A stretch of 64,000 bases of DNA from Dokdonia sp. 4H-3-7-5 (GTDB taxonomy: Bacteria > Bacteroidota > Bacteroidia > Flavobacteriales > Flavobacteriaceae): contig NC_015496.1 of NCBI RefSeq assembly GCF_000212355.1, positions 248,001 through 312,000 on the forward strand, in the 5' to 3' direction. Position numbers and translations under genes: made by a program. This document shows, piece after piece, positions 101-58,171 of the stretch (its first letter is position 1; every line of letters begins with the position of its first letter). Below the pieces are notes generated by a model. That model worked only from the letters and a program-made list of their open reading frames with translations, searched no databases and was not told where the DNA came from.

Positions 101-120
101 TACGCTTTCGCGAAAGCTTA
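101..120. repeat. Dispersed palindrome, 19/20 match
   Basis: Matches TACGCTTTCGCGAAAGCGTA at 19 of 20 positions. It lies between the plus-strand terminator and the terminator of the SRP RNA gene. Confidence 0.85.
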
Positions 121-166
121 AAAAACAAAATCCCAAATTTCAATAGCTTATGAAATTTGGGATTCT
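121..166 (-). terminator. Terminator of the SRP RNA gene
   Basis: A 13-bp perfect stem (129-141 with 152-164). Read on the minus strand it is followed by a T-rich tract (TTTTGTTTTTT). It lies 44 bases beyond the 3' end of the SRP RNA and would end that transcript. Confidence 0.8.
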
Positions 167-209
167 TTATATATAGTGTCAAATTGCTTGACTTGTGCGC
201 ACAAAAAAT

Positions 210-303
210 GGCAAGCTACCTACATCACACCGCTACGACCATCTACCCTTGCTGCGTTCCCACCCTGGGGGATTCGACAGGAGCTGGTTGTGTAGGACTT
301 GCC
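210..303 (-). ncRNA. ffs: Signal recognition particle RNA, small bacterial type (4.5S-like)
   Basis: On the minus strand the tip hairpin reads CAGG-GTG-GGAA-CGC-AGCA. This is the conserved SRP helix 8: symmetric CAGG/AGCA loops below a GGAA tetraloop, which bind Ffh. The ends pair: GGCAAG (303-298) with CTTGCC (215-210), and CCTACA with TGTAGG inside them. Length is about 94 nt, usual for the small form that lacks the Alu domain. The RNA works with Ffh and FtsY to target membrane and secreted proteins. A promoter immediately upstream and a terminator downstream define the unit. It overlaps a TTG-initiated upstream extension of the next gene, which argues against that start. Confidence 0.9.
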
Positions 304-307
304 GCTG

Positions 308-337
308 CAAAGATATAGCTTCTTTGAGAAGTCGCAA
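308..337 (-). promoter_or_regulatory. Bacteroidetes-type promoter of the SRP RNA gene
   Basis: On the minus strand TTG (337-335) is followed after 19 bases by TATCTTTG (315-308), matching the Bacteroidetes -33 TTG / -7 TAnnTTTG consensus. Four bases later comes G303, the first base of the paired SRP RNA end, so the predicted start fits the RNA fold independently. Confidence 0.75.
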
Positions 338-388
338 GGTTTTTTTGCCCGATTTTTTGTTTTAAATTGCCTTAAAATTCAACATCAC

Positions 389-1450
389 ATGACAGCATAC
401 GCTAAGCACCTCATTCTATTACTTTTACCACTTCTTATCATAGGCTGTGGTGATAAAGGATCACTAGATGGAAACTTCACAATCGAGACTAGTGCCATTA
501 AAAGTTCTATAAAAAACGGTGGAAAGATTGCTATTTCGCTTAAAGCGAAAAAAAATATAACAATAGACTCTGTCGTTTATGATCTTGATGGAAAGCGCTT
601 GGGTAGTACTAATGGCACAGGTAAATACACCACTACGCTTACTTCGCCAAAATTAGGTGGCAGAACCTTAACCGCAACTATCTCTACTCCAGATGGAACG
701 ACAACTGCTACTCAAAAAATAAATATACTGCACACTAAAGCTCCTAAAGTATATGGTTATAAAATCATAAATAGATACCCACATCAAACAGATGCCTACA
801 CACAAGGACTAGAATTTGTAGGAGATACACTTTATGAAAGTAATGGCAGCTACGGAGAATCTACACTGCGCAAACTTGACTATAAAACTGGCGAAGTACT
901 TAAAGAAGTAAAGCTAGACAACTCTTATTTTGCAGAAGGCATGACGATCATAGGAGACAATATCTACCAACTCACATGGCAGAAAAATACAGGCTTTATT
1001 TACAACAAAGATACCTTTGAAAAAACAGGCACATTTGCTTACAATCAAAGTAAAGAAGGCTGGGGACTTACTAATGATAGAAACGTTATTTATAAGTCTG
1101 ACGGAACTAGTAAAATCTGGACGCTAGACCCTTCTAATCTTTCAGAGCAATCTTATATAGAGCCTACAGACAATTCTAAAGTAACGAGTAGACTTAATGA
1201 ACTTGAGTGGGTAAATGGCAAAATTTATGCAAATAATTATCAAGTGGATTTAATTTCAATTATAAATCCTATATCTGGAGCTATTGAAGGACTTATAGAT
1301 TTACGAGAACTTAAAAAAGAAGTACAATCAGGGCTTGACCCTGATAATGAAGTTCTCAATGGAATCGCTTATAAAGCAAATGAGGGTCGTCTTTTTGTTA
1401 CTGGAAAACACTGGAACACCTTATTTGAAATAGAGATTGTAGAAAAATAG
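389..1450 (+). CDS. Glutaminyl-peptide cyclotransferase, lipoprotein
   Basis: Converts N-terminal glutamine of peptides to pyroglutamate with release of ammonia (plant/bacterial beta-propeller QC family). The N-terminus is a lipoprotein signal ending LLIIGC with the lipidated Cys at about residue 20. An Ig-like stretch follows at about 30-110. The cyclotransferase propeller runs from about 120 to the end and starts YGYKIINRYPHQTDAYTQGL, with later blocks YESNGSYGES, LTWQ and GWGLTND. I chose ATG 389 because the frame can be extended upstream only to a TTG that lies inside the SRP RNA gene and because 389 gives a good signal. It acts in the periplasm or at the outer membrane. The family call is firm; the substrate is unknown. 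Confidence 0.85.
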   Translation: MTAYAKHLILLLLPLLIIGCGDKGSLDGNFTIETSAIKSSIKNGGKIAISLKAKKNITIDSVVYDLDGKRLGSTNGTGKYTTTLTSPKLGGRTLTATISTPDGTTTATQKINILHTKAPKVYGYKIINRYPHQTDAYTQGLEFVGDTLYESNGSYGESTLRKLDYKTGEVLKEVKLDNSYFAEGMTIIGDNIYQLTWQKNTGFIYNKDTFEKTGTFAYNQSKEGWGLTNDRNVIYKSDGTSKIWTLDPSNLSEQSYIEPTDNSKVTSRLNELEWVNGKIYANNYQVDLISIINPISGAIEGLIDLRELKKEVQSGLDPDNEVLNGIAYKANEGRLFVTGKHWNTLFEIEIVEK

Positions 1451-1541
1451 TCTGTTTACTCACCGTAACCGCGCGTTTACTCATTATGACTATTGGCAAG
1501 ATGCTTGATTAACTAGATTTACATCAGTTAATCAAGACATT

Positions 1542-4739: not shown

Positions 4740-7217
4740 TTACAAGCTCAACCCTATCAGAAACGCACCATCATTACCTCCTAGCGCTCCTTGACCATAC
4801 ACATAGTCAAAACGCAATAGCCTAAATTTACCCCAACCTACATTTCCTATTCCTACGGTGAACTCTCTGTAGAATGGACTTTCATTTGTGCTAAGTACGT
4901 GAGCTCCTGCTATAAGATTGAAGTTTAGTTTATTTACAAGTGGAATCTTCCCTAGTATCCACCCTTTAAAATTATGCTCGGCATGTCCTTCTACATACCC
5001 TTGGTTTGTACTACGTTCATAATAAGGTAAGACATTAAATCGATTGAGGCGTGATGGCTCAAAAAAGAGCGAGCGATTACCATTAAAATGCTGTCTATCT
5101 ATAAAGCTCACACCTTTTGCGGTGCCTAAGAAGGTCCCAGCGCGCACATCATAAGACATTCTACCCTTATTACTCACATTAAACTCTTGTTGAGCGACAA
5201 CGCGTAGTTGGTCAAAGTTATAATCTGCTATAGAAGCTCCAAAACCTTTTTCATACACTAAGGTAAGTGATGGATATTTTTCTGAGGTAACATTAAATTT
5301 CCCGCTAGGATAACTGTAGTATTTCTGACCAAAATTTGCCGTGGCACTTATAAACAACTTCCCTAAAGAGTGCGCTTCAAAAGCTCCATTCTCAGTATCA
5401 AAAGAATTGAGCGGATTATTACTAGTATACTCACGATCCTCTTTTGGGAAGAATGTTTGGTCTGTAGTGTTGAAAACAGGATTACGCTGCTCGTAAGCAA
5501 TAATGGCGTTTGCTCGCAAGCCATTCACTATTTCTTGTCCATAGTATAGTTGTGCAAATTCCTTTTCGTAATATTTTGCAAAGTTCTTTTCCTGAGTTAA
5601 TGTGAGATATGAATTTATAATAGGGCGTATAGGGTCTGCATTATTCACTTGTAAAATATCAACTCCTCCCGTAGCACTTATAGTGGCTCTATTAGTACGA
5701 TTAAAACGTCTAGTAAATCCTAATGTATAACGCAAACGATCTTCTGAAAATCCATAGTTCGCTTTCGCGAAAGCGGAAAGAGATTTACTATAATCTTCAT
5801 CACTCCAACTAGAATAAGTTGCCTGCATGGTTCCGTTCCAACCTTGAACAGTATTAAACTGAATATTCTGGATAGGTGGCGTGATTCCAAATCGCCATTT
5901 ATTATAAGTATCTGTATAAGAATATCCAAAGATGGGTGAAGTAATCTTAAATCGATTGCCTCGGTCATCTATAGAATCTAGATACTTCTTTGATTTTCTT
6001 ATAACCTGTATGCTATCTTTCTTTACATAATCATTTATTTCAAGTGACGTTAAAGGCACGGGACGACTGCGCTCCCAGAACACACTATCTTTTTTATTTG
6101 CCTGATCTGCAAAAGACAAAATCTCTGCCGAAAAAGAGCCCTTCGTAAACTGAGGAGCAAACTCATAATCAGAATAAGCTGCTGTAAATCTACCATCACC
6201 TTTAAGTCCTAAAAAACCAAAGCTAAAGTCTATGACTTGTGATATTTTTACCCACTGACTAAGTGAGGATTCATATTTAAAATTCTGCTTAAAGTTGAGA
6301 TTTTCAATAAATGGCACTTGAATCGCACTACCATCCGTTTGTAAATCTACGCCATAAAGTTGCCATGAATCTTCTACAATATAGATGGTTCCAGTAAATA
6401 CCCGGTCGTTTTCTCTACGTGGTGTTACCGTTATTTTATTGATGAGTTGGTCGTTTTCAAAAAACGTTCCTTCAAGATTATACTTGTAGTAAGAGAATGC
6501 ATTACTAGCGATAGGAGAAATGATCTGCGTATTGAGATCTAGGGTATTTTCATAAAAAGAGAAGTTTGCATCGCTCGCAGTATTAAAGCTAAAACCGTTA
6601 TCATCTCCACTTACTTTACTCGCTACAATTACCTCGCTAAAATTATCTGGACGCTGATATTTAATATTTGAAATAGTCTCACTTAAATATATTATACCTG
6701 TTCGTGTAGAGTCCAGACCACCGCCTAAATCTCCTACTTCTTGCCCTAAAATTTTATCTGGTGCATCTTTTACCTGCCACAGACCTCTAGAGTAAAAGGA
6801 GGCCGTATACGCTCCTATCTTCTGTAAATTCTTTTTTCTTGAGGCTACTGCTCCTTGTATAATGCGATCTGCGGGATTTATACCACCTTGCACGATTACT
6901 TCATCTAGGGATGTAGAAGATTCTTCCATTACAACAGAAACTGTCATTTCTTCAGAATTTACCTCCACTTCCTTTATAACCGTTGCATAGCCTAGAAACT
7001 GAAAGCTGACATTTAATGTTTCTCCTTGATCTATTACCAGTAATTCTAGAGCGTATTGCCCATCACCATTTGTGGTAGTACCTCGGTTAGTATTTTCTAT
7101 AAACACATTTACAAATGGAAGCGCCTCACCTTCTTTACTTACTACAGTACCTGTAATCTGTGCAGCTGTAACAAAGTAAAAGAGTAGTATAATAACTAAT
7201 GTAAAGTATGTGCGCAT
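4740..7217 (-). CDS. DUF5686 outer-membrane protein with CarboxypepD-regulatory-like domain
   Basis: 825 aa. The signal peptide ends near TAAQ (about 19). A carboxypeptidase regulatory-like domain follows at about 20-95 (ITGTVVSKEGEALPFVNVFI, GQYALELL), then a TonB-box-like SLDEVIVQGG at about 103. The remainder matches the DUF5686 family: a soluble part, then alternating strands ending in FDYVYGQG..GLSL as in an outer-membrane barrel. Length is normal for the family. The gene start lies 24 bases from the end of the next CarboxypepD gene, so the two probably form one transcript. A palindrome copy lies in frame (SAFAKANYG). The transported or bound substrate is unknown. Confidence 0.8.
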   Translation of the reverse strand: MRTYFTLVIILLFYFVTAAQITGTVVSKEGEALPFVNVFIENTNRGTTTNGDGQYALELLVIDQGETLNVSFQFLGYATVIKEVEVNSEEMTVSVVMEESSTSLDEVIVQGGINPADRIIQGAVASRKKNLQKIGAYTASFYSRGLWQVKDAPDKILGQEVGDLGGGLDSTRTGIIYLSETISNIKYQRPDNFSEVIVASKVSGDDNGFSFNTASDANFSFYENTLDLNTQIISPIASNAFSYYKYNLEGTFFENDQLINKITVTPRRENDRVFTGTIYIVEDSWQLYGVDLQTDGSAIQVPFIENLNFKQNFKYESSLSQWVKISQVIDFSFGFLGLKGDGRFTAAYSDYEFAPQFTKGSFSAEILSFADQANKKDSVFWERSRPVPLTSLEINDYVKKDSIQVIRKSKKYLDSIDDRGNRFKITSPIFGYSYTDTYNKWRFGITPPIQNIQFNTVQGWNGTMQATYSSWSDEDYSKSLSAFAKANYGFSEDRLRYTLGFTRRFNRTNRATISATGGVDILQVNNADPIRPIINSYLTLTQEKNFAKYYEKEFAQLYYGQEIVNGLRANAIIAYEQRNPVFNTTDQTFFPKEDREYTSNNPLNSFDTENGAFEAHSLGKLFISATANFGQKYYSYPSGKFNVTSEKYPSLTLVYEKGFGASIADYNFDQLRVVAQQEFNVSNKGRMSYDVRAGTFLGTAKGVSFIDRQHFNGNRSLFFEPSRLNRFNVLPYYERSTNQGYVEGHAEHNFKGWILGKIPLVNKLNFNLIAGAHVLSTNESPFYREFTVGIGNVGWGKFRLLRFDYVYGQGALGGNDGAFLIGLSL
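5758..5777. repeat. Dispersed palindrome inside a CDS, 18/20 match
   Basis: Within the barrel part of the DUF5686 gene; on the coding (minus) strand it reads SAFAKA. Confidence 0.85.
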
Positions 7218-8699: not shown

Positions 8700-9452
8700 A
8701 TGTTTCGATTTCTTTCGGCGATTATTTTATTATTCATTATCACAAGTTGTTCTCAAAAAACACCTACTGCACAAGAGATTGTAGATAAGGCCATAGCAGC
8801 TTCTGGAGGTGCTCAAATTGAACATGCTAGTATTCATTTCAAGTTTAGAAATTTCTACTATAGAGCCACTCGCAATGAAGGTTTACGCACCTTAGAACGT
8901 TGTACGGATGCTGAATGTCAGGTACAACAAGACGTTATTAAAGATAATGGAGAATTTGTACGCTTTCGCGAAAGCGCACCTATCCCAGTAGCAGATAGCA
9001 TGAAAAATCGTTATGCAAATAGCGTTAACTCTGTTCATTACTTTTCTGTACTTCCATATGGGTTAAATGATCCAGCAGTAAGAAAAAATCTAGTGGATGA
9101 AGTTACCGTAAAAGGCGAGTCTTATTACCGTATTAAAGTAGCATTTGCAAAAGAAGGTGGTGGTGAGGATTTTCAAGATGAGTACATGTACTGGATTCAT
9201 AAAGAAAATTACAACGTAAATTATCTTGCCTATAACTATCAAACTTCTGAAGGTGGCACGCGTTTTAGAGAAGCTTACAATGAACGTATCATAGAAGGAA
9301 TACGCTTTGTAGATTATCGCAATTACAAACCTGAAGAGCAATTTCCTGCGCTTACCACGCTTGATAATCTCTTTGAAAACAACAAGCTCAATCTTTTAAG
9401 TAAGATTGAGCTTGAGAATATCACTGTAACTATCTGTCCTGATAATTGCTAG
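8700..9452 (+). CDS. DUF6503 family lipoprotein
   Basis: 250 aa. The lipoprotein signal is MFRFLSAIILLFIITSC (Cys at 17). The mature part starts AQEIVDKAIAASGG and continues with blocks (KFRNFYYRATRN, EYMYWIHKENYNVNYLAYNY, RFREAYNERIIEGIRFVDYR) that look like DUF6503, a Bacteroidetes family related in fold to LolA/outer-membrane lipoprotein carriers. The molecular role is unknown. A palindrome copy is in frame and encodes RFRESA. The stop overlaps the stop of the convergent histidine phosphatase gene by 4 bases. Confidence 0.7.
   Translation: MFRFLSAIILLFIITSCSQKTPTAQEIVDKAIAASGGAQIEHASIHFKFRNFYYRATRNEGLRTLERCTDAECQVQQDVIKDNGEFVRFRESAPIPVADSMKNRYANSVNSVHYFSVLPYGLNDPAVRKNLVDEVTVKGESYYRIKVAFAKEGGGEDFQDEYMYWIHKENYNVNYLAYNYQTSEGGTRFREAYNERIIEGIRFVDYRNYKPEEQFPALTTLDNLFENNKLNLLSKIELENITVTICPDNC
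8959..8978. repeat. Dispersed palindrome inside a CDS, 19/20 match
   Basis: In frame within the DUF6503 gene and read as VRFRESA, a reading phase different from the copies that encode AFAK. Confidence 0.9.
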
Positions 9453-12517: not shown

Positions 12518-13306
12518 CTAGCTGTTCCATATTGACCATGAGGCCTCTGCTTGCAATTCTAGCATGCGCAAACCATTAATTATGGTCGCTCCTTGCTCGC
12601 CTGCATATCGTAAAAAAGAAGACTCTGCCGGATTATAAATCAAGTCAAATGCAACATGTGTTTCATTTAAAAATAAATATGGAATATCTGGGGATTCCTC
12701 TACATCCGGATAGGTGCCTAGCGGCGTTGTATTCACTATAAAAGTCTGGCTCTCGATGAGTTCTCTATCTAGATCTTCGTAGGTTATTGTTGATTCTTTA
12801 CGCTTTCGCGAAACAAAAACACATTGCACACCAAGCTGTTGCATTGCATAGTGTACCGCCTTTGATGCTCCTCCTGTTCCTAAAATAAGGCATTTTAAAT
12901 CTCTACTTTTAAAGTTTGGTGTGCCAAAATCTTCAAAAAGAGAGTCTCCAAAGTGCTCCAATAAGGTATCTCTAAAACCAATAAAATCCGTATTATAACC
13001 AGTTAATGTTCCATCACTTTCAACTCTTATGGTGTTTACAGCTCCAATAGCTTCGGCATCTGAATTGAGATTATCTACTAAGGGTATTACATCTTGTTTA
13101 TAAGGGATGGTTACATTATAACCTTTCGCGTAAGCGGGAGAAAAAAGATCTTTTAAGGCTTCTTTCTCGGGAACATCAAAATTTACATATGTTGCCGCTA
13201 TCGCTAGCTTGTCAAACTTATTTTTAAAATACCCTCTAGAAAATGAGTATCCTATATCTTTTCCTATGAGTCCGTACTTATCCACGAGCTTTTGTTCTTG
13301 TTCCAT
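12518..13306 (-). CDS. aroE: Shikimate dehydrogenase
   Basis: 262 aa. It reduces 3-dehydroshikimate to shikimate with NADPH in aromatic amino-acid synthesis. Family motifs: YGLIGKDIGYSFSRGYF (substrate loop), GYNVTIPYK with the catalytic Lys, GAVNTI, GYNTDFIGF, the nucleotide loop LGTGGASKAV, NTTPLGTYP, FDLIYNP, and NGLRMLELQAEASWSIW at the end. The start overlaps the end of the upstream DUF368 gene by 29 bases, so they are probably co-transcribed. It carries one half-site of the dispersed palindrome (FVSRKRK) and a degenerate one near 13119-13138 (PAYAKG). Confidence 0.95.
   Translation of the reverse strand: MEQEQKLVDKYGLIGKDIGYSFSRGYFKNKFDKLAIAATYVNFDVPEKEALKDLFSPAYAKGYNVTIPYKQDVIPLVDNLNSDAEAIGAVNTIRVESDGTLTGYNTDFIGFRDTLLEHFGDSLFEDFGTPNFKSRDLKCLILGTGGASKAVHYAMQQLGVQCVFVSRKRKESTITYEDLDRELIESQTFIVNTTPLGTYPDVEESPDIPYLFLNETHVAFDLIYNPAESSFLRYAGEQGATIINGLRMLELQAEASWSIWNS
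12799..12818. repeat. Dispersed palindrome half-site inside aroE
   Basis: The left half and core are intact (TACGCTTTCGCGAAA) and the right arm is lost. It encodes SRKR on the coding strand. Confidence 0.6.
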
Positions 13307-21516: not shown

Positions 21517-21536
21517 TATGCTTTCGCGAAAGCGGG
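21517..21536. repeat. Dispersed palindrome, intergenic, 17/20 match
   Basis: Begins 37 bases after the stop of the M14 peptidase gene and ahead of the small membrane protein gene. Confidence 0.85.
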
Positions 21537-38216: not shown

Positions 38217-39283
38217 ATGTATCCTTCCATACTTAATTATAGAACTTTAATGAGACAGGTTAAGACATTCTACTCTTTTATATTGCTAATTATTACTTGC
38301 TTGAGCTGTTCGCAAGATGATTATTCAAATAATAATGTTGCTGAACAAACCACTGATCCTTTTACTATTTCTGGACCACATCTACTTTACAATATGAAAT
38401 CACTTTCTACAAAGGAGTTAATGCAATGCAAACCTTTGGTTTAGTAGACCCTGGTTTGATGAATGAATGGAAGGTAGAAATTGTAAGAGAGTTTGTTGGA
38501 AATCTTCGTGAACAACCTATTGATAGCGACCCTATTCAGGCTAGTGATAACAAGTGGTACCACTCTCTTCAGACTATTGTTAATCAAAATCGAGACAACA
38601 ATAAAATTACAATAATTTGTCCTTTCGGCTGGGTTGATAATGAAGGACACCAAATACTCTTTACTGGTCTAAATCCCTCTTCGCAATACTTTTATGCTGA
38701 TTATAAAACAAAAATGAAAGAAATAGCCGAGCATTTTAAAGACCAACCAGATGTCTGGATTGAAGTTTGGAATGAACCGTATCATTGGAATAATGAAAAT
38801 AATTATACTCATAATTTGTGGCTGTCAGATATGACAGACATGGTAGAAAATTTGAGGCAAGTGCCCGGTTTTCGTAATATAGTAATCGTTCCTGGAAATG
38901 AACAAGGTCAATCTGAAGAAGCTATTCTTGCAAAAGGAAATACTCTTATAGAGGATAAGTTTAATGTATTATTTGATCTACATGCTTATGAGAAGTGGCT
39001 GGTTAATACTACTGAGTCTCAAATTATTTCTAGACTCAATAATTTAAAAGAAAATGATATCCCTTTCTTTATAGGCGAGATTGGGGTCAAAAATGTGGGT
39101 GATATCATGCCTATTCAAAATTTCCTAAATGCCGTTAATTCTGAACAAGTAAGCACATTAGCATGGTTATGGAATCAAAATAGTAATTATAGTAATGCTT
39201 TATTAACTAATGACGGATTACCGAACTCAAATTTTAATAATAATTATTGGGGATTGACGTACAAGGAATTTCTTGATGATTAA
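38217..39283 (+). pseudogene. GH5-like glycosidase lipoprotein gene with one frameshift
   Basis: Two overlapping frames form one protein. The first (38217-38444) gives a lipoprotein signal (YSFILLIITCLSC) and ISGPHLLYN. The second (open through 38426 to 39283) continues ITFYKGVNAMQTFG, a typical GH5 start. Restoring one A near 38391-38394 would read YNNEITFYKG. The catalytic part is otherwise complete: EVWNEPYHW (acid/base Glu) and FFIGEIGVK (nucleophile Glu), ending WGLTYKEFLDD. It would be an outer-membrane or secreted beta-glycanase. With only one lesion, a sequencing error or a fresh mutation are both possible. Alternative start: ATG 38250 (MRQVKTF). Confidence 0.75.
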
Positions 39284-39687
39284 TAACTGGTCACAAAAAA
39301 CAGAGCCACGTAAAACTTACTACTTTCTTATCTTATTCGAAAAGATAAATGGTTGCAAACATTAATCAAGAGAATCTGAAAATAATACTTGCATAGCGAT
39401 TACTTAAAGAAGAACTTTTTTACTTCAAACAAACTCCACCGAGGCTAGTTTCTTTCTCGAACCTTCCATTATCTTTTATCTATAGTTCTAAAGCTTAGCT
39501 TTCTATAGTATAACATTGAATTTACTAAGAAATAACACGTCTAAAGGAAAACCTTAAGGAAATGTGAGCACGTAATTGTAGATTAGCTCTATCAAATTGA
39601 CTTCGTCTAACACATAGATTACAGCTTAATTTTTTACGCTTGCGCGAAAGCGTAAGTTGTTTAATAAGCAGTCAAAAAAACATAACT
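39284..39687. other. Intergenic region with diverged repeat
   Basis: 404 bases. Near 39542-39585 the pattern AAAGGAAAACCTTAA..CACGTA..GTAGATTAGC resembles 40410-40455, and TATAACATTGA near 39510 recurs near 41367. These look like remnants of duplicated upstream regions. A near-perfect palindrome ends the region. No gene was seen. Confidence 0.45.
39635..39654. repeat. Dispersed palindrome, intergenic, 19/20 match
   Basis: TACGCTTGCGCGAAAGCGTA, one change inside the core. It ends 33 bases before the ATG of the next lipoprotein gene. Confidence 0.85.
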
Positions 39688-40251
39688 ATGAAACTCTTTC
39701 TATACCTAATTTTAGCTTGCACACTCCTACTTATCTCTTGTGGTAGTGATGATGATACCACAAATATCGATAACCTATCAACTCTAACAGACTTGAATGG
39801 TGAAACTGGTTTATCTTATGAAGAAAGTTTAAGCAAGTGGTCAGACTTAAAAAGTAATCATGGAAAATCATACATCTATCAAACAGATATTATCTCCTTT
39901 ACAGGTGATGGAAGCACCACAGAAATTAAAGTAATAGAAAACAGTGTTGTCTCTCGAGTATATCAAACTTTTACCATAGATGGTGAGACTGGGGAGCGAT
40001 TGATTACAGACACCTATTCTGAAAACGAAGCTGCATTAGGAACAAACCAAGAAGGCGCTGCTCCGCTCACAATAGACGAGTTATATGATTCTTGTGTAAG
40101 CGAATACCTCGTAGTAGACCAGGAGAACAACACGATATACTTACAGACTGAAGTAAATGGGTTACTTACATTATGCGGTTTCATACCTAATAATTGTGCA
40201 GATGATTGTTTTAGCGGCATTTCTATAAAAGCCTTTGGCTGGATTAACTAA
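39688..40251 (+). CDS. Small lipoprotein, DUF6174-like
   Basis: 187 aa from ATG 39688, giving the lipoprotein signal MKLFLYLILACTLLLISC. The frame can be extended to a TTG inside the palindrome, which I reject. The mature part has Asp-rich SDDDTT, then SLSKWSDLKSNHGKSYIYQT and STTEIKVIENSVVSRVYQTF, a pattern seen in DUF6174 lipoproteins (W..Y...V.V..N.VV). Four Cys lie near the C-terminus (DSCVSEY, LCGF, NNCADDCF). The function is unknown; it is likely anchored in a membrane facing the periplasm. Confidence 0.65.
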   Translation: MKLFLYLILACTLLLISCGSDDDTTNIDNLSTLTDLNGETGLSYEESLSKWSDLKSNHGKSYIYQTDIISFTGDGSTTEIKVIENSVVSRVYQTFTIDGETGERLITDTYSENEAALGTNQEGAAPLTIDELYDSCVSEYLVVDQENNTIYLQTEVNGLLTLCGFIPNNCADDCFSGISIKAFGWIN

Positions 40252-40507
40252 TCTTACTTTAAAGTATTGCATATACTTATGAAGTGGACTACTTCAAAAA
40301 AATATTTCCTAGTGTGACACATCTATCAGCAGCTCCATTAAAAGAACTACAGTTACCGTAACTAATCATAATATTGTGCGTTTATATTTTACAAAAACAA
40401 TACATATAAAGGAAAGCCGTAAATTAATTCACGTATATAGTTGTAGATTTGCCATCAGAAATCTACTTCTTACAATTGCCTAATAAGTAGACTGTTATAA
40501 AAAACTT

Positions 40508-41101
40508 ATGAAAACAATAAGAATACTACTGTTTATACTTTTTATATTATTAGTGAGCATAAGCTATAGTCAAAACTATAAGTTTGATAAAATTGTAAAG
40601 AGCAGTTTTTCCACACAATTATTTCCCAATCAAGAATGGACTCATTTTTTTAATTCTGAGGATGATTCATATCATATGTATATATACAAACGCAATGATT
40701 CTCTAGTCTCTAGAATTTTTGATACCAAAGAAAATGAGGAGCATTACTTTCACATTGATAAATCGAATTCTTTAAATTTTATTGAAACAAAAAACTTATC
40801 AAAAAAAGTAAATGGACATAAATTTGAATTCTCTAAAATAGAACAGCGTAAAGGAAATAAGGAAATCACTTTTAAAATTCTCAACGACAGAGATAAAAAA
40901 ATTGCTAATTACAAGCTTAAGATTAAAGAAACTGATGAAGATTTTTTCTCAATATATAAGCTATCTGCTCTTGAGAATCAATTATTCAATAAAATCAAAC
41001 CTTCCAAACACTTTATCGTTTTAGAAGCTAAAAGAAATTCAACAAAATACAAACTTGACTCCATTGAGGATATAAATTTGACAGTTACAATTCCTCATTA
41101 A
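40508..41101 (+). CDS. Secreted protein of unknown function
   Basis: 197 aa. The signal peptide (MKTIRILLFILFILLVSISYSQ) ends near residue 22. The mature protein is Lys/Asp-rich with strands (WTHFFNSEDDSYHMYIYKRN, KEITFKILNDRDKKIANYKL) and no recognised family. The base composition is more AT-rich than the housekeeping genes. It has isolated gaps on both sides and is part of the 38-45 kb accessory stretch. Confidence 0.65.
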   Translation: MKTIRILLFILFILLVSISYSQNYKFDKIVKSSFSTQLFPNQEWTHFFNSEDDSYHMYIYKRNDSLVSRIFDTKENEEHYFHIDKSNSLNFIETKNLSKKVNGHKFEFSKIEQRKGNKEITFKILNDRDKKIANYKLKIKETDEDFFSIYKLSALENQLFNKIKPSKHFIVLEAKRNSTKYKLDSIEDINLTVTIPH

Positions 41102-41472
41102 AACTAGTTCTACCCATAGACGTAGGGCCCATTTGCTATAACAACCAAATTAAAATAACAAACAGACTCCTAAATTGAAGCTCGAACAAAGACAAAACCT
41201 CAATTTATAGAAGGTGTAGAGAAAGTTATCAAAGAGGCTAAAGCTCCCTTATCTGGAAAGGATGCTCTCAAACCAATCTCTTAACTTAGGTCTATCAATA
41301 ACATAAACTGCACAGATACGCTTTCACGAAAGCAAATTGCACTAGTTTCTTACACCGAGCGTAAGTATAACATTGATTTTTTACCTTAGATAAAATAAAC
41401 CTTAAAATAAGCTAGCAATCGTAAGTACACATATTTGTATTACACACAAAAATTAATTGGTATTAGAACAAC
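41102..41472. other. Intergenic region with possible gene remnant and palindrome
   Basis: 371 bases. The frame 41174-41284 is open to a TAA and reads like real protein (QFIEGVEKVIKEAKAPLSGK, then DALKPIS) but has no start codon, so it may be the 3' tail of a lost gene. A palindrome copy and a TATAACATTGA repeat follow. No complete gene. Confidence 0.4.
41317..41336. repeat. Dispersed palindrome, intergenic, 17/20 match
   Basis: TACGCTTTCACGAAAGCAAA, with one change in the core. It lies about 136 bases before the 41473 gene. Confidence 0.75.
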
Positions 41473-42462
41473 ATGGATTGGAGCAGCTTTGAGATAGACG
41501 ATAAAATATTTAAGTGGGAACAAACATTTAATGATGTCTTTGAAGTCTTTGAACACAAAAACCTTAACAAGAATACGAGCTCTTGGAAACTTCACAAAGT
41601 ACCTTCAAACGAGTTTTTAGGCTTAGATACTGTTTCGTGTGAATTCTACGGACCTTCTTATGACAGACCTATTTCCTCTATTTCATTTGGATTAAAACCT
41701 ATTAAAAAAGGATGGTTTCAACAGCACCACTCGCCGTATATGAAACAGCTCATATCTATACTAGGCGAACCTGATAAAGTTCAAGAAAATCCATTAACAG
41801 ATGGTAAAAAGTATAACGAGGGATATAGTAGCGGCAGTGTAATTTATGCTGCACACTGGTGGTTTGGCGATATTAGGATTGGCCTCTCTGCGTATGGAGG
41901 AATCAGAAATGAGTCATTAGGAGAAACAGCGGCACTCCTCCACATAGGTTGGTACAATGAGATAGCAATGGCTAAGCCATACATCAATGACTTTTATAAT
42001 AGAGAAGCTCGCATAAGCAAACAACTTACTTTGATAGAAACCTTTACCCTCAGCTATGGTCAATTAAAAATGTTGCGTAGGTCTTATGAGTTACCTAGTG
42101 ATTTGCTGGCAGGTAAGGAAGATGAAATTCACCTAGCACAGCTCGCTTTATACCACGCTAACGTTTATAGAACCCCAAAGGAGCTAGCACAACAAATGCA
42201 ACCCAACCAGCTGCGGCTTTTATCTCTAGACACTACGCAACAATACGCACTAGCCACTAAGCACGACTTCACGGTCTTTGACTATGGTAGCGAAATCGTC
42301 TTTACTAATATACTACCAGCAAAAGGAGCCGGAGCAACAGAAATCACTGTAAACAACTTAACATATAGAGACAGTCCTAATAGTGTCCCGTTATCTGAAC
42401 TAAGAACCAAACTTAAAGCTTTAGGTTTCACCATTAAAACCGCCGAGTTTTTCGATGCTTGA
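41473..42462 (+). CDS. Cytosolic protein of unknown function
   Basis: 329 aa, with no signal or membrane segment. It starts MDWSSFEIDDKIFKWEQTFN. Aromatic-rich strands follow (VSCEFYGPSYDRPISSISFG, SVIYAAHWWFGDIRIGLSAY), then a helical part (about 165-240) and an alpha/beta C-terminus (VPLSELRTKLKALGFTIKTA). No family was recognised. The early part looks like immunity-type or housekeeping hypothetical proteins found singly in Bacteroidetes, but I will not assign a role. It stands alone between long gaps. Confidence 0.65.
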   Translation: MDWSSFEIDDKIFKWEQTFNDVFEVFEHKNLNKNTSSWKLHKVPSNEFLGLDTVSCEFYGPSYDRPISSISFGLKPIKKGWFQQHHSPYMKQLISILGEPDKVQENPLTDGKKYNEGYSSGSVIYAAHWWFGDIRIGLSAYGGIRNESLGETAALLHIGWYNEIAMAKPYINDFYNREARISKQLTLIETFTLSYGQLKMLRRSYELPSDLLAGKEDEIHLAQLALYHANVYRTPKELAQQMQPNQLRLLSLDTTQQYALATKHDFTVFDYGSEIVFTNILPAKGAGATEITVNNLTYRDSPNSVPLSELRTKLKALGFTIKTAEFFDA

Positions 42463-42537
42463 TGATTACAAATGACGTTCATAACTCCTTTATCAAGTTC
42501 GCATTCTACAACATATTCCGATTAAAATGAGTGGAGT

Positions 42538-42557
42538 TAGGCTTTCGCGAAAATGTT
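42538..42557. repeat. Dispersed palindrome half-site, intergenic
   Basis: GCTTTCGCGAAAA: intact core, right arm lost. It lies about 75 bases after the stop of the 41473 gene. Confidence 0.6.
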
Positions 42558-42739
42558 CTCTCAACCACTATTTCTAGTAGCGATACACGCTGCGCAAGAT
42601 TTATAAATAAGTGTATATTTAGACAATCAATTAAAAAACAACTAATTACATATCTTTTCTGTGATATCAAAATTTTCAATGAGCCTTCTATGATTTGAAC
42701 TCTGGCTGCTTTATAAGATTGCTTTTTATCCACTCACAA

Positions 42740-44188
42740 ATGAAAAATATATACACAATACTTTTACTTCTTGCACTTCTAAGTTGTTCCGAAAAAAAGT
42801 TAAGCACTCCCTACGAGCCTCTAGTCACCAATAAAGATGCAATTGAAAAGAGAAATGAGGTATTTATAAAAGTACATGACAGTGTGGATTCTTTCTTTAC
42901 AAATTTAACGCTGGATGAGATGCAAGCTATGCCTGACATTTTATACCTAGGCAAAAAGGAGAATAAGTCATCTATAACAATTCCTACAGACACTACAGTT
43001 TATATAATAGGTGGAGACCCTTTCATTTCAATATTTTACAAACTTGAAATTGATAAAGGCGACAGCATTTTAATTGACGTGGAAAACTTAAAAGTCAACT
43101 CCTCTAAGCAAGTTCAATATCCAGTCTTTACACACTTAAATAGTGATAAACCATGGAGCGAAACTAACTTTGATTATCTTCTGTTCAAGCAAAATCTAAA
43201 TAGTGAGGCAATCGTAATCGACGAAGATAAATTTCAAAACAAAGAGTTCTCAATAAAACAAATACATGAAAACTCAAACTTGCTATTGGATAGTCTAAAA
43301 GCTATTAATAGTATCTCAGATGAGTTCTACAGAAGTACAAAGCTTGACCAGCAACTTAAGTACGCAACATCGAAAGTAAGAGAAGCTAGAAAGCAGCATT
43401 TACAATTGGATATTGATACTTTAGATATAAAAATAAATAGTGAAGAATTATTTGAACGCAATGAATACGTAAGTTTTTTAAAAGCTTTGGTGTTATATAA
43501 ATATTTTCAAACCGATAAAAGAGTTTCAAACACTGTACAATTTGATGTTGTTACTAAAGAAACAAAGCTATTTAATCAGTCAACAAAAGAAATGTTACTA
43601 AGCGCTTATCTTAAAAGCATTTATTTTTTAGAAAAATCAAAGTTTGACAATTATTTAGAAAAGTTTTACACTTTAAATACTAGCAATAAGTTGGAAGACA
43701 AATGGAAGACAATTGTCGAAAATCAACAAGAAAACATTGAGAAATTAGACATAAATGATCGTACTATTGGGGTTTTATCAAATTTAGTAAATGACAACCA
43801 ATTGACATTTGAGGAGATTCTTTTAAGAGAAAAAGGAAAAATAGTGCTAGTTGATTTTTGGGCAAGTTGGTGTGCACCTTGTAGAAAAGAAATGCCATTT
43901 TTAGAAGATTTAAAAACAAGATTTGATAAAACAGAATTTGAAATTATTCAAATTTCAATTGACAAAGAATACGCAGCTTGGCTTCGAGCAAGTACATTAG
44001 AAAATCTATCAACTGAAGAGAATAATTATATAATTGCCAACTGGAAAAAGTCAAAACTATATAATAATTACAATATAAAGACAATACCACGGTATCTGCT
44101 TTTTGATAAATTTGGAAAAATCATTGATGACAATGCCCCAAGACCAAGTGATAATGAACTTGCATCCTTGATTATAGCTAACTTATAA
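42740..44188 (+). CDS. Thioredoxin-like (TlpA/ResA type) lipoprotein
   Basis: 482 aa from ATG 42740 (lipoprotein signal MKNIYTILLLLALLSC); an upstream TTG extension is rejected. Residues about 20-350 are a charged, helical region of unknown fold. The C-terminal 130 residues are a thioredoxin domain with KIVLVDFWASWCAPCRKEMP (CxxC redox pair), the cis-Pro loop KTIPRYLLFDKFGKI and DNAPRPSDNELA. This layout is common in Bacteroidetes periplasmic thiol-disulfide proteins. The reduction partner is unknown. Confidence 0.85.
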   Translation: MKNIYTILLLLALLSCSEKKLSTPYEPLVTNKDAIEKRNEVFIKVHDSVDSFFTNLTLDEMQAMPDILYLGKKENKSSITIPTDTTVYIIGGDPFISIFYKLEIDKGDSILIDVENLKVNSSKQVQYPVFTHLNSDKPWSETNFDYLLFKQNLNSEAIVIDEDKFQNKEFSIKQIHENSNLLLDSLKAINSISDEFYRSTKLDQQLKYATSKVREARKQHLQLDIDTLDIKINSEELFERNEYVSFLKALVLYKYFQTDKRVSNTVQFDVVTKETKLFNQSTKEMLLSAYLKSIYFLEKSKFDNYLEKFYTLNTSNKLEDKWKTIVENQQENIEKLDINDRTIGVLSNLVNDNQLTFEEILLREKGKIVLVDFWASWCAPCRKEMPFLEDLKTRFDKTEFEIIQISIDKEYAAWLRASTLENLSTEENNYIIANWKKSKLYNNYNIKTIPRYLLFDKFGKIIDDNAPRPSDNELASLIIANL

Positions 44189-44384
44189 GAAATACCATTA
44201 ATACTTATAAACTCCGCAGTTGCACGGTGTACTTCATAATCAGGATTCTGACACACCATTATCAACCTAACTAATAAAGAGTAATGTGACTAAAAAGGAA
44301 TTGGGACTATAAAAACAAAATCAACCCTGCTTCATTTCCGTAAATTCAACCCAACTTTTGATTTTCTAAGCTTTGGAGCAATTC

Positions 44385-44404
44385 CCTATTTTCGCGAAAG
44401 CGTA
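44385..44404. repeat. Dispersed palindrome, right half plus core, intergenic
   Basis: CCTATTTTCGCGAAAGCGTA, identical over 20 bases to the copy at 44976-44995. It ends 38 bases before the ATG of the 44443 gene. Confidence 0.75.
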
Positions 44405-44442: not shown

Positions 44443-44940
44443 ATGAAAAATTCCCTAAAAACAATATTTCTTCTTGTAACCTTATTTGCATTTCACACTG
44501 CCACTGGACAAGAAAATTTTGAAAAAACAACACTAGTCAAGAACATCTTCTCTGCGCTGAAAAGCCAAGATGATACAAAGGTCATTGAAAGTCTGGCTAC
44601 CAAAGATGACATCTTATACCTCATCCCTATTGTACAAGCAAATTCTAGCGAAAAAATACCTGAAGTAGCAACCATAATAGCCAATTTTAAAACAGAAGCA
44701 GCCAAGGATTTTAAAGAAGTACTGAGAAAGGGATCCGCCTTTAAGGTGCAATGGGAAGATATGCAGTTACAGACCGTACGTTATGAACCTCAACCAGACG
44801 ATAATATCGCTATTGAGAAGGGACATATCATTCTAGTATGTAGTAGTAATGACGTTAACTTTGAAGTGATTTTAAGAAAATCTATCAAAATAAAAGACCA
44901 CTGGCGATTAATGGATAGAATGAAGTTTAGACTGCTGTAA
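44443..44940 (+). CDS. Secreted protein of unknown function
   Basis: 165 aa with a signal peptide (MKNSLKTIFLLVTLFAFHTA, cut near TGQ). The mature part starts with helices (LVKNIFSALKSQDDTKVIES) and ends in strands (GHIILVCSSNDVNFEVILRK, DHWRLMDRMKFRLL), a layout like NTF2-type or SnoaL-like small domains. No active-site signature is visible. A palindrome half-copy lies just upstream in the promoter region. Confidence 0.65.
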   Translation: MKNSLKTIFLLVTLFAFHTATGQENFEKTTLVKNIFSALKSQDDTKVIESLATKDDILYLIPIVQANSSEKIPEVATIIANFKTEAAKDFKEVLRKGSAFKVQWEDMQLQTVRYEPQPDDNIAIEKGHIILVCSSNDVNFEVILRKSIKIKDHWRLMDRMKFRLL

Positions 44941-44975: not shown

Positions 44976-44995
44976 CCTATTTTCGCGAAAGCGTA
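44976..44995. repeat. Dispersed palindrome, right half plus core, upstream of the pterin dehydratase
   Basis: CCTATTTTCGCGAAAGCGTA, a duplicate of the copy at 44385-44404. It ends 37 bases before the ATG at 45033 and sits just upstream of a TATCTTTA (-7-like) box at 45002-45009, i.e. in the -33 region. Confidence 0.78.
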
Positions 44996-45392: not shown

Positions 45393-45454
45393 AATTACAC
45401 TATTATTAAAAAAGAGATTTTTGCTTACGCGAAAATATCTATTACTTTATAAAC

Positions 45455-47878: not shown

Positions 47879-49270
47879 ATGAAGACCAAGTACATTGATC
47901 TCATCGAGCAGACGTATTATTTCCCACAAGAGGAATTTAACCTTAATAAAAACCACTTAGAGTTTCATGGCATAGACCTTATGAAACTTGTAGAGCAATA
48001 CGGTGCACCACTTAAGTTTACTTATTTACCTAAAATCTCTGATAACATACAGCGAGCAAAAAAATGGTTTGCAGATGCTATCCAGGCAAATGGTTATGAA
48101 GGAAGTTATAACTATTGCTACTGTACAAAAAGCTCACACTTTAAGCACGTGCTTAACGAAGCACTTTCTAATGATATACATATCGAGACTTCGTCTGCAT
48201 TTGATATAGATATTGTAGAGAGTTTAAAAGCTGCGGGAAAAATCACAGACGATACATACGTAATAAGCAATGGGTTTAAACGTGAGAGGTATGTAGAAAA
48301 CATTGCTCGTCTTATTAATAACGGGCATAAAAATGCAATTCCGGTAATTGACAATTACGAAGAGATTGACCTTCTAAGCAACCAGATTAATGGCAAATTT
48401 AAGGTAGGAATTCGTATAGCATCTGAGGAGGAGCCTAAGTTTGAATTCTATACTTCAAGACTTGGAATAGGTTACAAAAACATCGTTCCATTCTTTAATA
48501 ACCAGATTAAAAATAACGAGAAGGTTGAGCTTAAAATGCTTCACTTCTTTATTAACACAGGGATACGCGACACGGCTTATTACTGGAACGAGCTCATGAA
48601 GTGTATCAAAGTGTACATCAATCTTAAAAAGATTTGTCCGTCACTTGATAGCCTAAACATAGGTGGAGGTTTCCCTATAAAGAACTCACTTGCTTTTGAG
48701 TATGATTATGCATACATGATTAATGAAATCATCGCACAGATCAAACAAGCTTGTGATGATGCAGATGTAAAGGTGCCTAACATTTTTACAGAATTTGGCA
48801 GCTTTACCGTTGGCGAAAGCGGCGGAGCTATTTATGAAGTACTGTACCAGAAGCAACAAAACGACCGTGAAAAGTGGAACATGATAAACTCTTCATTTAT
48901 CACAACATTACCAGATACTTGGGCTATAAACAAACGTTTTATCATGCTAGCCGTAAACCGCTGGAATGAGGAATATGAGCGTGTTTTATTAGGTGGTCTT
49001 ACCTGCGATAGTGATGACTACTATAACAGTGAGCAGCACATGAACGCGATTTATATGCCTAAGTATAAAAAAGATAAACCACTTTACATTGGTTTCTTTA
49101 ATACAGGAGCATATCAAGAGTCTATAGGAGGTTTTGGCGGACTGCAACACTGCCTTGTTCCTTCTCCTAAGCACATCCTCATTGACCGCAATGAAGATGG
49201 AGAGATTACCACAGAAATATTTGCAGAACAGCAAACGAGTGAGCAATTATTAGGTATCTTAGGGTATTAA
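47879..49270 (+). CDS. speA: Arginine decarboxylase (PLP-dependent)
   Basis: 463 aa. It converts arginine to agmatine, the first step of polyamine synthesis here. It is an alanine-racemase-fold PLP decarboxylase: PLP Lys region YNYCYCTKSSHFKHV at about 80, IETSSAFDIDIV, FKVGIRIASEEEPKFEFYTS, the Gly-rich phosphate site LNIGGGFPI, and GLTCDSDD with the active-site Cys. It is shorter than E. coli SpeA (about 630) and is of the type usual in Bacteroidetes. It is followed by agmatinase and a DHS-like gene. Confidence 0.88.
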   Translation: MKTKYIDLIEQTYYFPQEEFNLNKNHLEFHGIDLMKLVEQYGAPLKFTYLPKISDNIQRAKKWFADAIQANGYEGSYNYCYCTKSSHFKHVLNEALSNDIHIETSSAFDIDIVESLKAAGKITDDTYVISNGFKRERYVENIARLINNGHKNAIPVIDNYEEIDLLSNQINGKFKVGIRIASEEEPKFEFYTSRLGIGYKNIVPFFNNQIKNNEKVELKMLHFFINTGIRDTAYYWNELMKCIKVYINLKKICPSLDSLNIGGGFPIKNSLAFEYDYAYMINEIIAQIKQACDDADVKVPNIFTEFGSFTVGESGGAIYEVLYQKQQNDREKWNMINSSFITTLPDTWAINKRFIMLAVNRWNEEYERVLLGGLTCDSDDYYNSEQHMNAIYMPKYKKDKPLYIGFFNTGAYQESIGGFGGLQHCLVPSPKHILIDRNEDGEITTEIFAEQQTSEQLLGILGY

Positions 49271-49271: not shown

Positions 49272-49291
49272 TACGCTTTCGCGAAAGCAAA
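49272..49291. repeat. Dispersed palindrome between speA and speB, 18/20 match
   Basis: Begins right after the speA stop, in the 112-base gap before agmatinase. Confidence 0.88.
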
Positions 49292-52166: not shown

Positions 52167-52186
52167 TACGCTTTCGCGAAAGCGGT
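52167..52186. repeat. Dispersed palindrome, intergenic, 18/20 match
   Basis: Between the terminator and the threonine-synthase-like gene, 47 bases before that gene's ATG. Confidence 0.88.
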
Positions 52187-54429: not shown

Positions 54430-54432
54430 TCA

Positions 54433-56756: not shown

Positions 56757-56883
56757 GAGTATGTGTTTTACACAAAAATAGGAAAACGTATGCTAGTGCT
56801 TACCATATAGATTTAAAGATTATTTCTACTAGTATAGATGAGCATACTCGCTTCTTTAAATGGAAGAAAGCGACAGCATGACT

Positions 56884-56966
56884 CGCTAGCCCCGATTGCA
56901 ATGAAAATCCCGCAGTGTAGCGATAGCGCAACGAGGAATTGTAATGAAAAACGGGAAACCACCTTG
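56884..56966 (+). ncRNA. Structured element resembling flavobacterial GCCCCGATTG...GGGA repeat RNAs (flavo-1-like)
   Basis: The motif TAGCCCCGATTGCAATG at 56887-56903 is matched downstream by GGAATTGTAATGAAAAACGGGA. CCCG pairs with CGGG, and ATTGCAAT pairs with ATTGTAAT (one G-T), leaving an inner GC-rich arm. I recall this kind of element as common in Flavobacteriaceae intergenic regions and associate it with the flavo-1 RNA motif; the name is from memory. It lies between porQ (3' side) and cmk (5' side), so transcription direction is uncertain. Confidence 0.5.
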
Positions 56967-57007
56967 CAAATATGCACAAAATGGACTGCTCCTAAAATTG
57001 AAAAGAA

Positions 57008-58024
57008 TTATTGTAAGTCGATGCCTAGACCAAAAAAACTACTTGCCGCAGCGCTGTTGTAACGAGCATATGCATAATTGAAACGCATCTTGTTAATCTT
57101 GATTCCAAAGCCTGCACTGATACCAGCAAAACTACGCTGATTGATAATACGCAGCTCTTCACTCCTGCGGAAGTTGTAGCCCAGTCGCACGTTAAAACCA
57201 CCTTTAGGAAACAACTCTACGCCTACAATCGCGTGACGAATTACATTATCGAGAATTCCTATTTTTTCTGTGGTGGTATTGCCGTCAAGATCTGTGGTAC
57301 CTCTAGCTTCATTTTCGAAGGCGATGTTCCATAATTGAAGGTTTTCTAGCGTGACATGCCAGCGTATAGGCACGTTAGGTAAAATCTGAGAAATACCAGC
57401 GTCTACCTCTAGCGGAAGCTTCTCAAAAGTATCTACATAGGGTGTAAACTGGGTTCCTATATTACGTACCACTAATGCTGCATTGAGATCCCAATCTTCG
57501 TAATTATAGGTAAGTCCAAGATCTATCGCTCCTCCCGCCGAAGAATACTCGGCTAATGTGGAGGTGATTAATTTTACGTTTGCCCCTACGTGAAAATCTG
57601 TGTACGGAATATTAAGCGCGTAACCCAATGAAAGCGACGCCTCACTACCACCAAAATCTCCAGTAGAGTTCCCATTCTCATCCCTACCATCAAAGGTTCC
57701 ATAATTTACGTAAGTGATTCCCGCATGCAAGACCTGCGTGCGTCTATCCCATAAATAGGCATAAGATGCCGTCCCATAATTGATGTCTGCCAGATAATTT
57801 ACATAGTTTACAGAAAGCTGATTATCCATCCTATAATTAATGTTGGCTGGATTATAGAGCGCAGAGTCTGGGTCGTAGTCGTAGTTTGTAATGATTTTCC
57901 CTCCTAAAGCAGCTTGCCTGGGAGATGACATCAAATTGAGAAACTGATAGGTAGCACGTCCTCCTAACTGGCTATAAGCCGTTAGTGAACACGCAAACAA
58001 CAATAAAAAGAGTCTCTTTTTCAT
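57008..58024 (-). CDS. porQ: Type IX secretion system protein PorQ
   Basis: 338 aa. The signal peptide (MKKRLFLLLFACSLTAYSQ) is followed by an outer-membrane barrel of the PorQ/PorV type: YQFLNLMSSPRQAALGGKII, DSALYNPANI, LSVNYVNYLADINYGTASYA, HAIVGVELFPKGGFNVRLGY, and a C-terminus ending in aromatic-rich strands. PorQ belongs to the outer-membrane machinery that exports and attaches cargo with type IX C-terminal domains. Length is typical. It is probably monocistronic and ends a minus-strand group after lon. Confidence 0.88.
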   Translation of the reverse strand: MKKRLFLLLFACSLTAYSQLGGRATYQFLNLMSSPRQAALGGKIITNYDYDPDSALYNPANINYRMDNQLSVNYVNYLADINYGTASYAYLWDRRTQVLHAGITYVNYGTFDGRDENGNSTGDFGGSEASLSLGYALNIPYTDFHVGANVKLITSTLAEYSSAGGAIDLGLTYNYEDWDLNAALVVRNIGTQFTPYVDTFEKLPLEVDAGISQILPNVPIRWHVTLENLQLWNIAFENEARGTTDLDGNTTTEKIGILDNVIRHAIVGVELFPKGGFNVRLGYNFRRSEELRIINQRSFAGISAGFGIKINKMRFNYAYARYNSAAASSFFGLGIDLQ

Positions 58025-58111
58025 TAATCAGTACTGCATCATGATACATAACGATTGCAATGATAGTATATTTTGAGAGGGATGGGAAATAAATAGAACT
58101 ATAGGATAAAG

Positions 58112-58144
58112 AAAAAGGGAAACTCGTAATGAGTTTCCCTTTTA
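58112..58144. terminator. Bidirectional terminator between lon and porQ
   Basis: AAAAGGGAAACTC pairs with GAGTTTCCCTTTT around GTAAT. It ends the lon transcript on the minus strand. Confidence 0.85.
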
Positions 58145-58151
58145 TAATTTT

Positions 58152-58171
58152 TACGCTTTCGCGAAAAATTG
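58152..58171. repeat. Dispersed palindrome half-site downstream of lon
   Basis: TACGCTTTCGCGAAAAATTG: left arm and core intact. It lies 12 bases past the lon stop, before its terminator. Confidence 0.65.

Follow-up and report, generated by a model that had tools for sequence, protein, structure and literature searches.

A strict palindrome repeated at even intervals around the chromosome of Dokdonia sp. 4H-3-7-5: a predicted protein-binding site with possible uptake-like behaviour

We know of few bacterial lineages in which about a thousand copies of one word fill the chromosome. The described systems closest to the one reported here are the DNA uptake sequences (DUS) of Neisseria and the uptake signal sequences (USS) of Haemophilus, the highly iterated palindromes (HIPs) of cyanobacteria, the Chi sites of Escherichia coli, and the parS and Noc sites bound by proteins of the ParB type. 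The subject of this study is a palindrome of Dokdonia sp. 4H-3-7-5, followed from a stretch of 64,000 nucleotides (the window; positions 248001-312000 of the single-contig genome of 3,389,993 bp) to the whole chromosome and to related genomes. It has a ten-base core, TTTCGCGAAA, within a strict 14-mer, GCTTTCGCGAAAGC, and is well supported, from its sequence and distribution, as a predicted chromosome-wide site at which a symmetric protein, either a dimer or one with two arms, would bind and read the DNA. Tentatively, and with somewhat less than even confidence, a binding site selected for its density and working like a DNA-uptake or self-recognition sequence is favoured.

USS are evenly spaced (Karlin, cited in PMC1939737); DUS are reported to be highly conserved in permissive places, and closely spaced DUS to add no transformation efficiency (PMC2397512). 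The share lying in genes is given as 34-42% for DUS (PMC2397512) and 65% for USS (PMC1939737). The Dokdonia palindrome resembles these systems in copy number (about 1000-2000 per genome), in its occurrence in genes and gaps, in its restriction to particular lineages, in having conserved sites within diverging flanks and in its even spacing, the last being the feature reported for USS. It differs in being a palindromic 14-mer with two biased arms, found in Bacteroidota, with few one-off copies and with 15 of 21 carriers lacking a type IV pilus ATPase. With HIP1 and the alternate cyanobacterial HIPs it shares the character of a highly iterated palindrome across the chromosome, but it is longer, has biased flanks and few near-misses, and the short GC-rich palindrome TTCGCGAA is not over-represented by itself. 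Chi of E. coli has a similar density, and a G/T-rich recombining strand would fit; Chi is, however, asymmetric, 8 bp long, randomly spaced and free of flank bias (250 kb checked). The parS and Noc sites are palindromes with TTTC...GAAA halves; their centre is of 4 bp, whereas that of the present motif is of 2 bp, and the present sites number about 1000 around the whole chromosome.

Seventeen exact copies of TTTCGCGAAA were counted in the window, every one at the start given in an earlier note on this DNA. That note had expected well under one copy by chance, as was found: 100 dinucleotide shuffles gave a mean of 0.09 and a maximum of 1. The whole genome holds 1012 copies, about 100 times the 10 of a reversed-word control. 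The 20-base palindrome first proposed occurs 14 times in the window at up to three mismatches (0 expected), including the one-off copies noted at 39635 and 41317, and is exact at only 1 of the 17 sites. What stood of the 20-base similarity is the 14-mer GCTTTCGCGAAAGC with biased flanks, since conservation is weak at the outermost positions of the 20-mer (A 57%, T 68%). These values are from the 148 cores of a 464-kb sample of the genome (twenty 20-kb stretches and the window), whose symmetrised, centre-aligned consensus reads T (68%), A (57%), C (75%), G (89%), C (89%), followed by TTTCGCGAAA and then by the same bases mirrored. Throughout the 21 stretches sampled, TTCGCGAA was seen only inside TTTCGCGAAA or the longer motif. 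The spectrum of GCTTTCGCGAAAGC in Dokdonia is nearly all-or-none, with 111 exact copies, 12 with one mismatch (five of which fall in the ten-base core) and 32 with two, the change in most of these being of one arm's outer GC to AT or AA; copies with three mismatches are near background (29, against 24 in the reversed sequence).

Around GCTTTCGCGAAAGC lies a symmetric region of about 50 bp in which the 5' arm of each strand is C-poor and G/T-rich. In Dokdonia, C falls to 6-9% between -5 and about -20 (background 19%) and G and T rise, at genic and intergenic sites alike. The bias is the same in a second genus described below (C 6-9%) and weaker in G229, a genome of a third genus (C 12-19% against 22%). 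T peaks about every 3 nucleotides in the arm, at -6, -9, -12 and -15. A phase-free test of this rhythm over -20 to -7, a 14-base stretch on which periods of 3 and 3.5 are not separable, gave p 0.001 for 80 intergenic Dokdonia arms, p 0.0035 for 32 intergenic arms of the second genus and p 0.018 for all 60 arms of G229 (its intergenic arms being too few alone); with 120 intergenic arms pooled, 0 of 2000 shuffles reached the observed value. A strand-specific rhythm of about 3 nucleotides hints at a filament or a single-strand reader. No covariation of the arms beyond composition was detected at 30 positions of the 148 sites (no z above 1.7), which argues against a conserved hairpin; a hairpin or terminator was rejected for this lack of compensatory changes. 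The flanks are no better conserved between species than DNA farther out, which points to a loose compositional preference or a mutational mark and not to a fixed flank sequence. The simplest account of a strict palindrome whose half-sites are independent, set in a symmetric bias of 50 bp, is a site bound by a protein.

With open reading frames (ORFs) called mechanically, 78 of the 148 cores (53%) fall within ORFs, where 124.5 were expected; co-directional gaps hold 35 (10.3 expected), convergent gaps 17 (2.3, an enrichment of about 7-fold) and divergent gaps 9 (3.4), with 9 at stretch ends unclassified (7.6). Copies thus occur both in genes and in gaps, as had been noted before. Those in genes are spread over the three frames (15, 21 and 42 copies), and the proteins in which they are translated as FRES, LSRK or AFAK are unrelated; they are thus not accounted for by a common coding motif. 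Spacing is over-regular: the coefficient of variation (CV) of the intervals is 0.57, against 0.98 ± 0.07 under a null with genic/intergenic weighting, and 3.1% of gaps are below 500 bp (18.3% expected). In G169, of the second genus, 55 sites gave a CV of 0.56, and two control words in Dokdonia DNA gave 0.83 and 0.97. Counts per 20 kb have a mean of 6.55 and a variance of 2.58, a less telling figure because the control word TTTTAAAA is low too (1.72 at a mean of 4.78). Over the contiguous first 100 sites (92 for G166) the CV was 0.63 in the window's genome (G000), 0.83 in G149 and 0.76 in G166, against 0.99 ± 0.10; the effect was smaller in congeners on these longer lists. With the origin set at about 1.347 Mb by parS-like sites, no clear trend of density from origin to terminus was seen in 20 stretches (6.8 against 6.3 per 20 kb, r -0.27).

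In a comparison of orthologous loci with five congeners (G149, G152, G154, G155 and G164 below), the core is kept at 51 of 58 aligned window sites (11/12, 11/12, 11/12, 10/12 and 8/10). Kept sites are mostly identical at 14 of 14 bases within 60-bp flanks of 55-100% identity. For the three species that are farther away, kept sites have flanks with a mean identity of about 73%, a level at which chance retention of an intact 14-mer would be about 1%. Stretches of three other congener genomes (G151, G161 and G229) had no core in aligned DNA and contribute nothing to this count. Four of the seven degenerate relatives listed in the earlier note (near 30001, 37629, 45425 and 60789) match intact cores of congeners (at 30002, 37633, 45425 and 60794). 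The sites of the window are as follows.

106-115, core, 14-mer at 104-117; kept in G164, G149 and G155.
1933-1942, core in the ORF at 1542-2288, read as LSRK; core kept in G164 and G149.
5763-5772, core in the DUF5686 gene at 4740-7217, read as AFAK; 14/14 bases in G164, G149 and G155, with flanks 66-77% identical.
8964-8973, core in the ORF at 8700-9452 (DUF6503), read as FRES; kept in G164, G149 and G155.
12804-12813, core in a shikimate-dehydrogenase-like gene, one outer GC being CA; one substitution in G149, kept in G164 and G155.
18984-18993, core near the start of the M14 peptidase gene at 18943-21480; kept in G152, G154, G164 and G149.
20100-20109, core in the same M14 peptidase gene; kept in G152 and G154, with same-length differences at 5/14 bases in G164 and 4/14 in G149.
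21522-21531, intergenic core between convergent genes; one substitution in G152, kept in G154.
23592-23601, intergenic core; kept in G152, G154, G164 and G149.
24608-24617, core in the chorismate-binding enzyme gene at 24107-25408; 14/14 bases in all five congeners.
30002-30011, one-mismatch core, probably decayed; core intact in all five congeners.
31386-31395, core in the RuvX-like gene at 31207-31704, the exact 20-mer; 14/14 bases in all five congeners.
37633-37642, degenerate relative; intact only in G155 among congeners.
39640-39649, one-mismatch core TTGCGCGAAA, in a 20-mer (39635-39654) that is otherwise full.
41322-41331, one-mismatch core TTTCACGAAA, within 41317-41336.
42543-42552, intergenic core, one outer GC being AT; kept in G152 and G154.
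44390-44399, intergenic core, one outer GC being AT; kept in G152 and G154.
44981-44990, core 41 bp past the stop of the ORF at 44443-44940; lost in G155, whose intact site is 444 bp off.
45425-45434, degenerate relative; intact only in G155 among congeners.
49277-49286, core just past the stop of the ORF at 47879-49270; lost in G155 (gapped alignment), with another site 40 bp off.
52172-52181, intergenic core; kept in G152, G154 and G155.
58157-58166, core just downstream of lon (58183-60654, minus strand); a one-base variant in G154, where the upstream site is kept.
60794-60803, one-mismatch core upstream of lon, probably decayed; intact in G152, G154, G164 and G149.

At 30002 and 60794, decay in the window's genome is a simpler reading than gain. 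Two parts of the window drew attention for other features: 37800-44400 is an accessory stretch that matches poorly in distant congeners and holds a GH5 (glycoside hydrolase) cellulase-like gene and several ORFs without a Pfam match, and 25536-27146 encodes, on a Flavobacteriaceae chromosome, a protein with AprA N-terminal, winged-helix and MT2-like methyltransferase Pfam domains.

For the seven lost sites (six by substitution), another lay 40, 444, 1116, 1116, 1422, 2637 and 3840 bp away. The lon locus (about 5.45 kb) held at least one core in all 19 carriers returned (21 searched), at shifting places; the window's genome has a downstream site and a one-mismatch relic upstream, and G154 has the reverse. 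Selection seems, from these comparisons, to act on local density and not on position, and even spacing together with replaceable positions argues for a benefit that saturates within a few kb.

Among the genomes searched, high counts of the motif are confined to a few marine genera of the Flavobacteriaceae. When one genome was taken per genus of the family (149 genomes), only the window's genome (1012 cores) and G010 (595) were high, the others having at most 34. All 18 Dokdonia genomes searched carry 481-1195 cores and all 23 genomes of a second genus 319-893. This second genus is probably Nonlabens, judging from a scan with a 24-base form of the motif, which may omit records close to the window's own; the form was met in 12 stretches of named genomes, four of Dokdonia, six of Nonlabens, one of a metagenome-assembled genome labelled 'Flavobacteriaceae bacterium' and one of 'Flavobacteria bacterium BBFL7'. 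In 397 genomes of the family, drawn from 237 genera, the 14-mer with no more than one mismatch numbered 536-1017 in six genomes of three genera and at most 29 in the rest; among 395 genomes of the phylum the exact 14-mer was found in 22, with 757 copies in the window's genome and at most 6 in any other. No high count was seen outside the three genera in these two sets. The third genus is represented by one genome, G229.

In a tree of the Lon protein (30 rows, midpoint root), Dokdonia and G229 stand together (94/85) and the second genus apart (100/100). At parB, 8 of the 9 Dokdonia loci, and G229 too, have a site 39 bp past the stop codon; in the second genus, 6 of the 7 loci have it within the gene. 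From this difference in placement, at the two loci compared, the two lineages seem to have been filled with the motif separately.

In the low-count genomes G101, G102, G374, G093 and G324 the few copies are clustered; ten proteins scanned in the G102 block included conjugation genes (TraG, a coupling protein, DUF5712 and RadC), and these clusters look like islands imported from carriers. Motif-carrying blocks of tens of kb lie in otherwise motif-poor hosts at L055-L057 (G102), L051-L054 (G374), L058-L060 (G093) and L061-L065 (G101), and the motif may trace DNA that left Dokdonia- or Nonlabens-like hosts. In G366 and G354 copies are scattered and mostly of the one-mismatch form; G042 has 25. 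In a collection of viral contigs the exact 20-mer occurred in one stretch; this is a weak search, as it would recognise only 1 of the 17 sites in the window and the collection may contain few phages of these hosts. One Nonlabens phage (L160, 35.7 kb) had 0 cores and 0 14-mers at up to two mismatches, where 8-11 cores were expected.

The site is the strict GCTTTCGCGAAAGC, flanked on the 5' side of each strand by some 16 bp of DNA poor in C and rich in G and T. Selection appears to favour its presence about once per 3 kb, not a particular place, so that a nearby second site adds little. Under the tentatively favoured uptake-like reading, it may mark self DNA for uptake and/or recombination, as do USS in Haemophilus and DUS in Neisseria: fragments with one site would be preferentially taken up or recombined, and the frequency of sites would rise. 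One site per fragment would then be enough, and two lineages could fill separately with the same word; such molecular drive would explain filling from zero. The over-regular spacing, the retention of sites, the core at every lon locus returned, the share of copies in genes and in all frames, the differing placement at parB and the lack of cores in the one phage support this reading. Within the family, Riemerella columbina is reported to prefer its own DNA in transformation (PMC7965970).

Several observations weigh against it. The DUS and USS known so far are not palindromes (PMC1939737). Near-misses are few, with one-mismatch to exact 14-mers at 12/111 in Dokdonia and 6/52 in G169, whereas Neisseria genomes are reported to have 562-818 one-off copies for 1888-2245 DUS, counted as 10-mers (PMC2397512). 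In G229 near-misses are relatively more frequent (6 one-mismatch against 18 exact 14-mers), and its 30 sites, with a CV of 0.66, show no depletion of gaps below 500 bp. The two losses with a site at 1116 bp are the same event in the close pair G164/G149, so the seven are not all independent. No comparable dialect word was found in 100 kb each of G087, G240, G253 and G025; four copies of the motif itself are present in G240. The type IV pilus or type II secretion ATPase (PF00437 over cut-off) was found in only 6 of 21 carriers, the window's genome not among them, other pilus genes not having been searched; it was over cut-off in 3 of 21 non-carriers. No paper on competence in Dokdonia or Nonlabens was among the matches listed, nor, in a text search for the motif, any paper on these genera by title among the matches listed. 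A reader protein was not found: 54 ORFs of the window reach 120 aa, and the Pfam matches of 40 of them, an ECF (extracytoplasmic function) sigma factor and a YebC-type protein included, showed no obvious one. A close pair of sites was tried as a pointer to a reader gene and dropped; the 33-bp pair in G149 sits between ORFs of 257 and 95 aa. As a separate observation, a complete PilB/GspE-type ATPase is patchy in Dokdonia and the second genus, where some species have it and in others it was not found; the matches of the whole search, carriers and non-carriers together, were in G150, G155, G157, G161, G165, G166, G102, G127 and G253.

Ranking close behind the uptake-like reading, and possible more than probable, is a lineage-specific chromosome-organising (nucleoid or segregation) protein that would bind as a dimer to about 1000 evenly spaced 50-bp sites and structure or anchor the chromosome every few kb. 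A palindrome with independent half-sites and no arm covariation, a symmetric biased region of about 50 bp, a near all-or-none mismatch spectrum, very even spacing with no clear trend from origin to terminus, and sites in genes and gaps alike would all suit such a protein, which explains the anatomy of the site equally well. It does not explain the double filling: separate lineages filling from zero sites are hard to picture for an organiser, the motif is limited to three genera among the genomes searched, and no candidate protein emerged. ParB or Noc was rejected as the reader. The profile scores of carriers are mostly lower, but there is no extra copy and no change in the helix-turn-helix (HTH) common to carriers, that of Dokdonia and G229 reading like the HTH of non-carriers. 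The parS-like sites are also kept: they lie at 1345881, 1347790 and 1348895 in G000, are clustered near one place in Dokdonia and G229, and number 2-3 in the second genus (control 0-3).

Some further variation was seen in ParB and its sites. All seven ParB sequences of the second genus (L181-L187) have KSRSAI in the HTH, where the other 26 aligned have KNRSTI or KKRSTI. In the parS-like sites listed for Dokdonia and G229, one half is mostly GAAACA (TGTTCCACGTGAAACA); among the matches listed, two GGAACA halves occur in the non-carriers G240, G253 and G074 and in one site each of G027, G087 and G012, and G144, G025 and G073 are carrier-like.

An improbable alternative is a palindromic, two-way Chi-like site of recombination or repair, which a repair nuclease would read from either side, with RecA loaded on the adjacent G/T-rich 3'-ending strand. 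RecA favours GT-rich DNA, and the would-be RecA arm is C-poor and G/T-rich on each strand, with T raised about every 3 nucleotides, although periods of 3 and 3.5 are indistinguishable. The density of one site per 3135 bp is near that of E. coli Chi (one per 3968 bp in 250 kb). Such a site would account for the G/T-rich arms and leave the even spacing unexplained: the 63 E. coli Chi sites in the same 250 kb are unevenly spaced (CV 1.03) and lack such a flank bias. Chi words known to us are short and asymmetric, and no rival word was found in the four motif-poor family genomes mentioned above (100 kb each).

More doubtful still is a HIP1-like word made and kept by a process linked to a methyltransferase. 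The motif is palindromic and highly iterated in genes and gaps, and HIPs are reported to accompany cognate methyltransferases (PMC4390886). Against this, no 5-methylcytosine (m5C) methylase (PF00145) was found in 11 of 21 carriers, the present genome and 10 others, the search not having covered N6-methyladenine (m6A) and N4-methylcytosine (m4C) enzymes; TCGCGA outside the motif is not enriched in the 464 kb (30, that is 178 minus 148, against about 54 expected by base composition); and the unit is of 14 bp with flanks, not 8. The methylation-linked site suggested in the earlier note is therefore not supported for m5C.

A regulatory, terminator or hairpin element, or a small mobile repeat of the REP (repetitive extragenic palindrome) or MITE (miniature inverted-repeat transposable element) type, is very hard to credit: it would suit the intergenic enrichment, about 7-fold in convergent gaps, and a gap of exactly the ten core bases between window position 10179 and G149, but half of the sites are in genes, there is no covariation of the arms, sites stay at orthologous places, 17 of the 22 differences seen on one side only are substitutions without change of length (5 have gaps), and the 10179 locus is intergenic, only about 65% identical and aligned with other gaps in G164 and G155. 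With that one exact gap in poorly aligned DNA and no set of clean empty sites, a REP/MITE repeat was rejected, and the non-autonomous mobile palindrome once proposed is not supported.

It is an evenly balanced judgement whether these sites represent a previously undescribed sequence-tag system of the Bacteroidota, namely a palindromic 50-bp site under density regulation that two lineages acquired separately and that is read by a protein which the present searches did not reveal. The site would either mark self DNA for uptake or recombination independent of a pilus, or anchor the chromosome genome-wide. A strict, evenly spaced motif, apparently gained separately in two genera and not in the related genera searched, lends itself to clean comparison. 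As an uptake tag it would be palindromic, unlike DUS and USS, and would imply a route that does without the customary pilus ATPase; as an architectural site it would provide a regular, genome-wide marker of chromosome folding.

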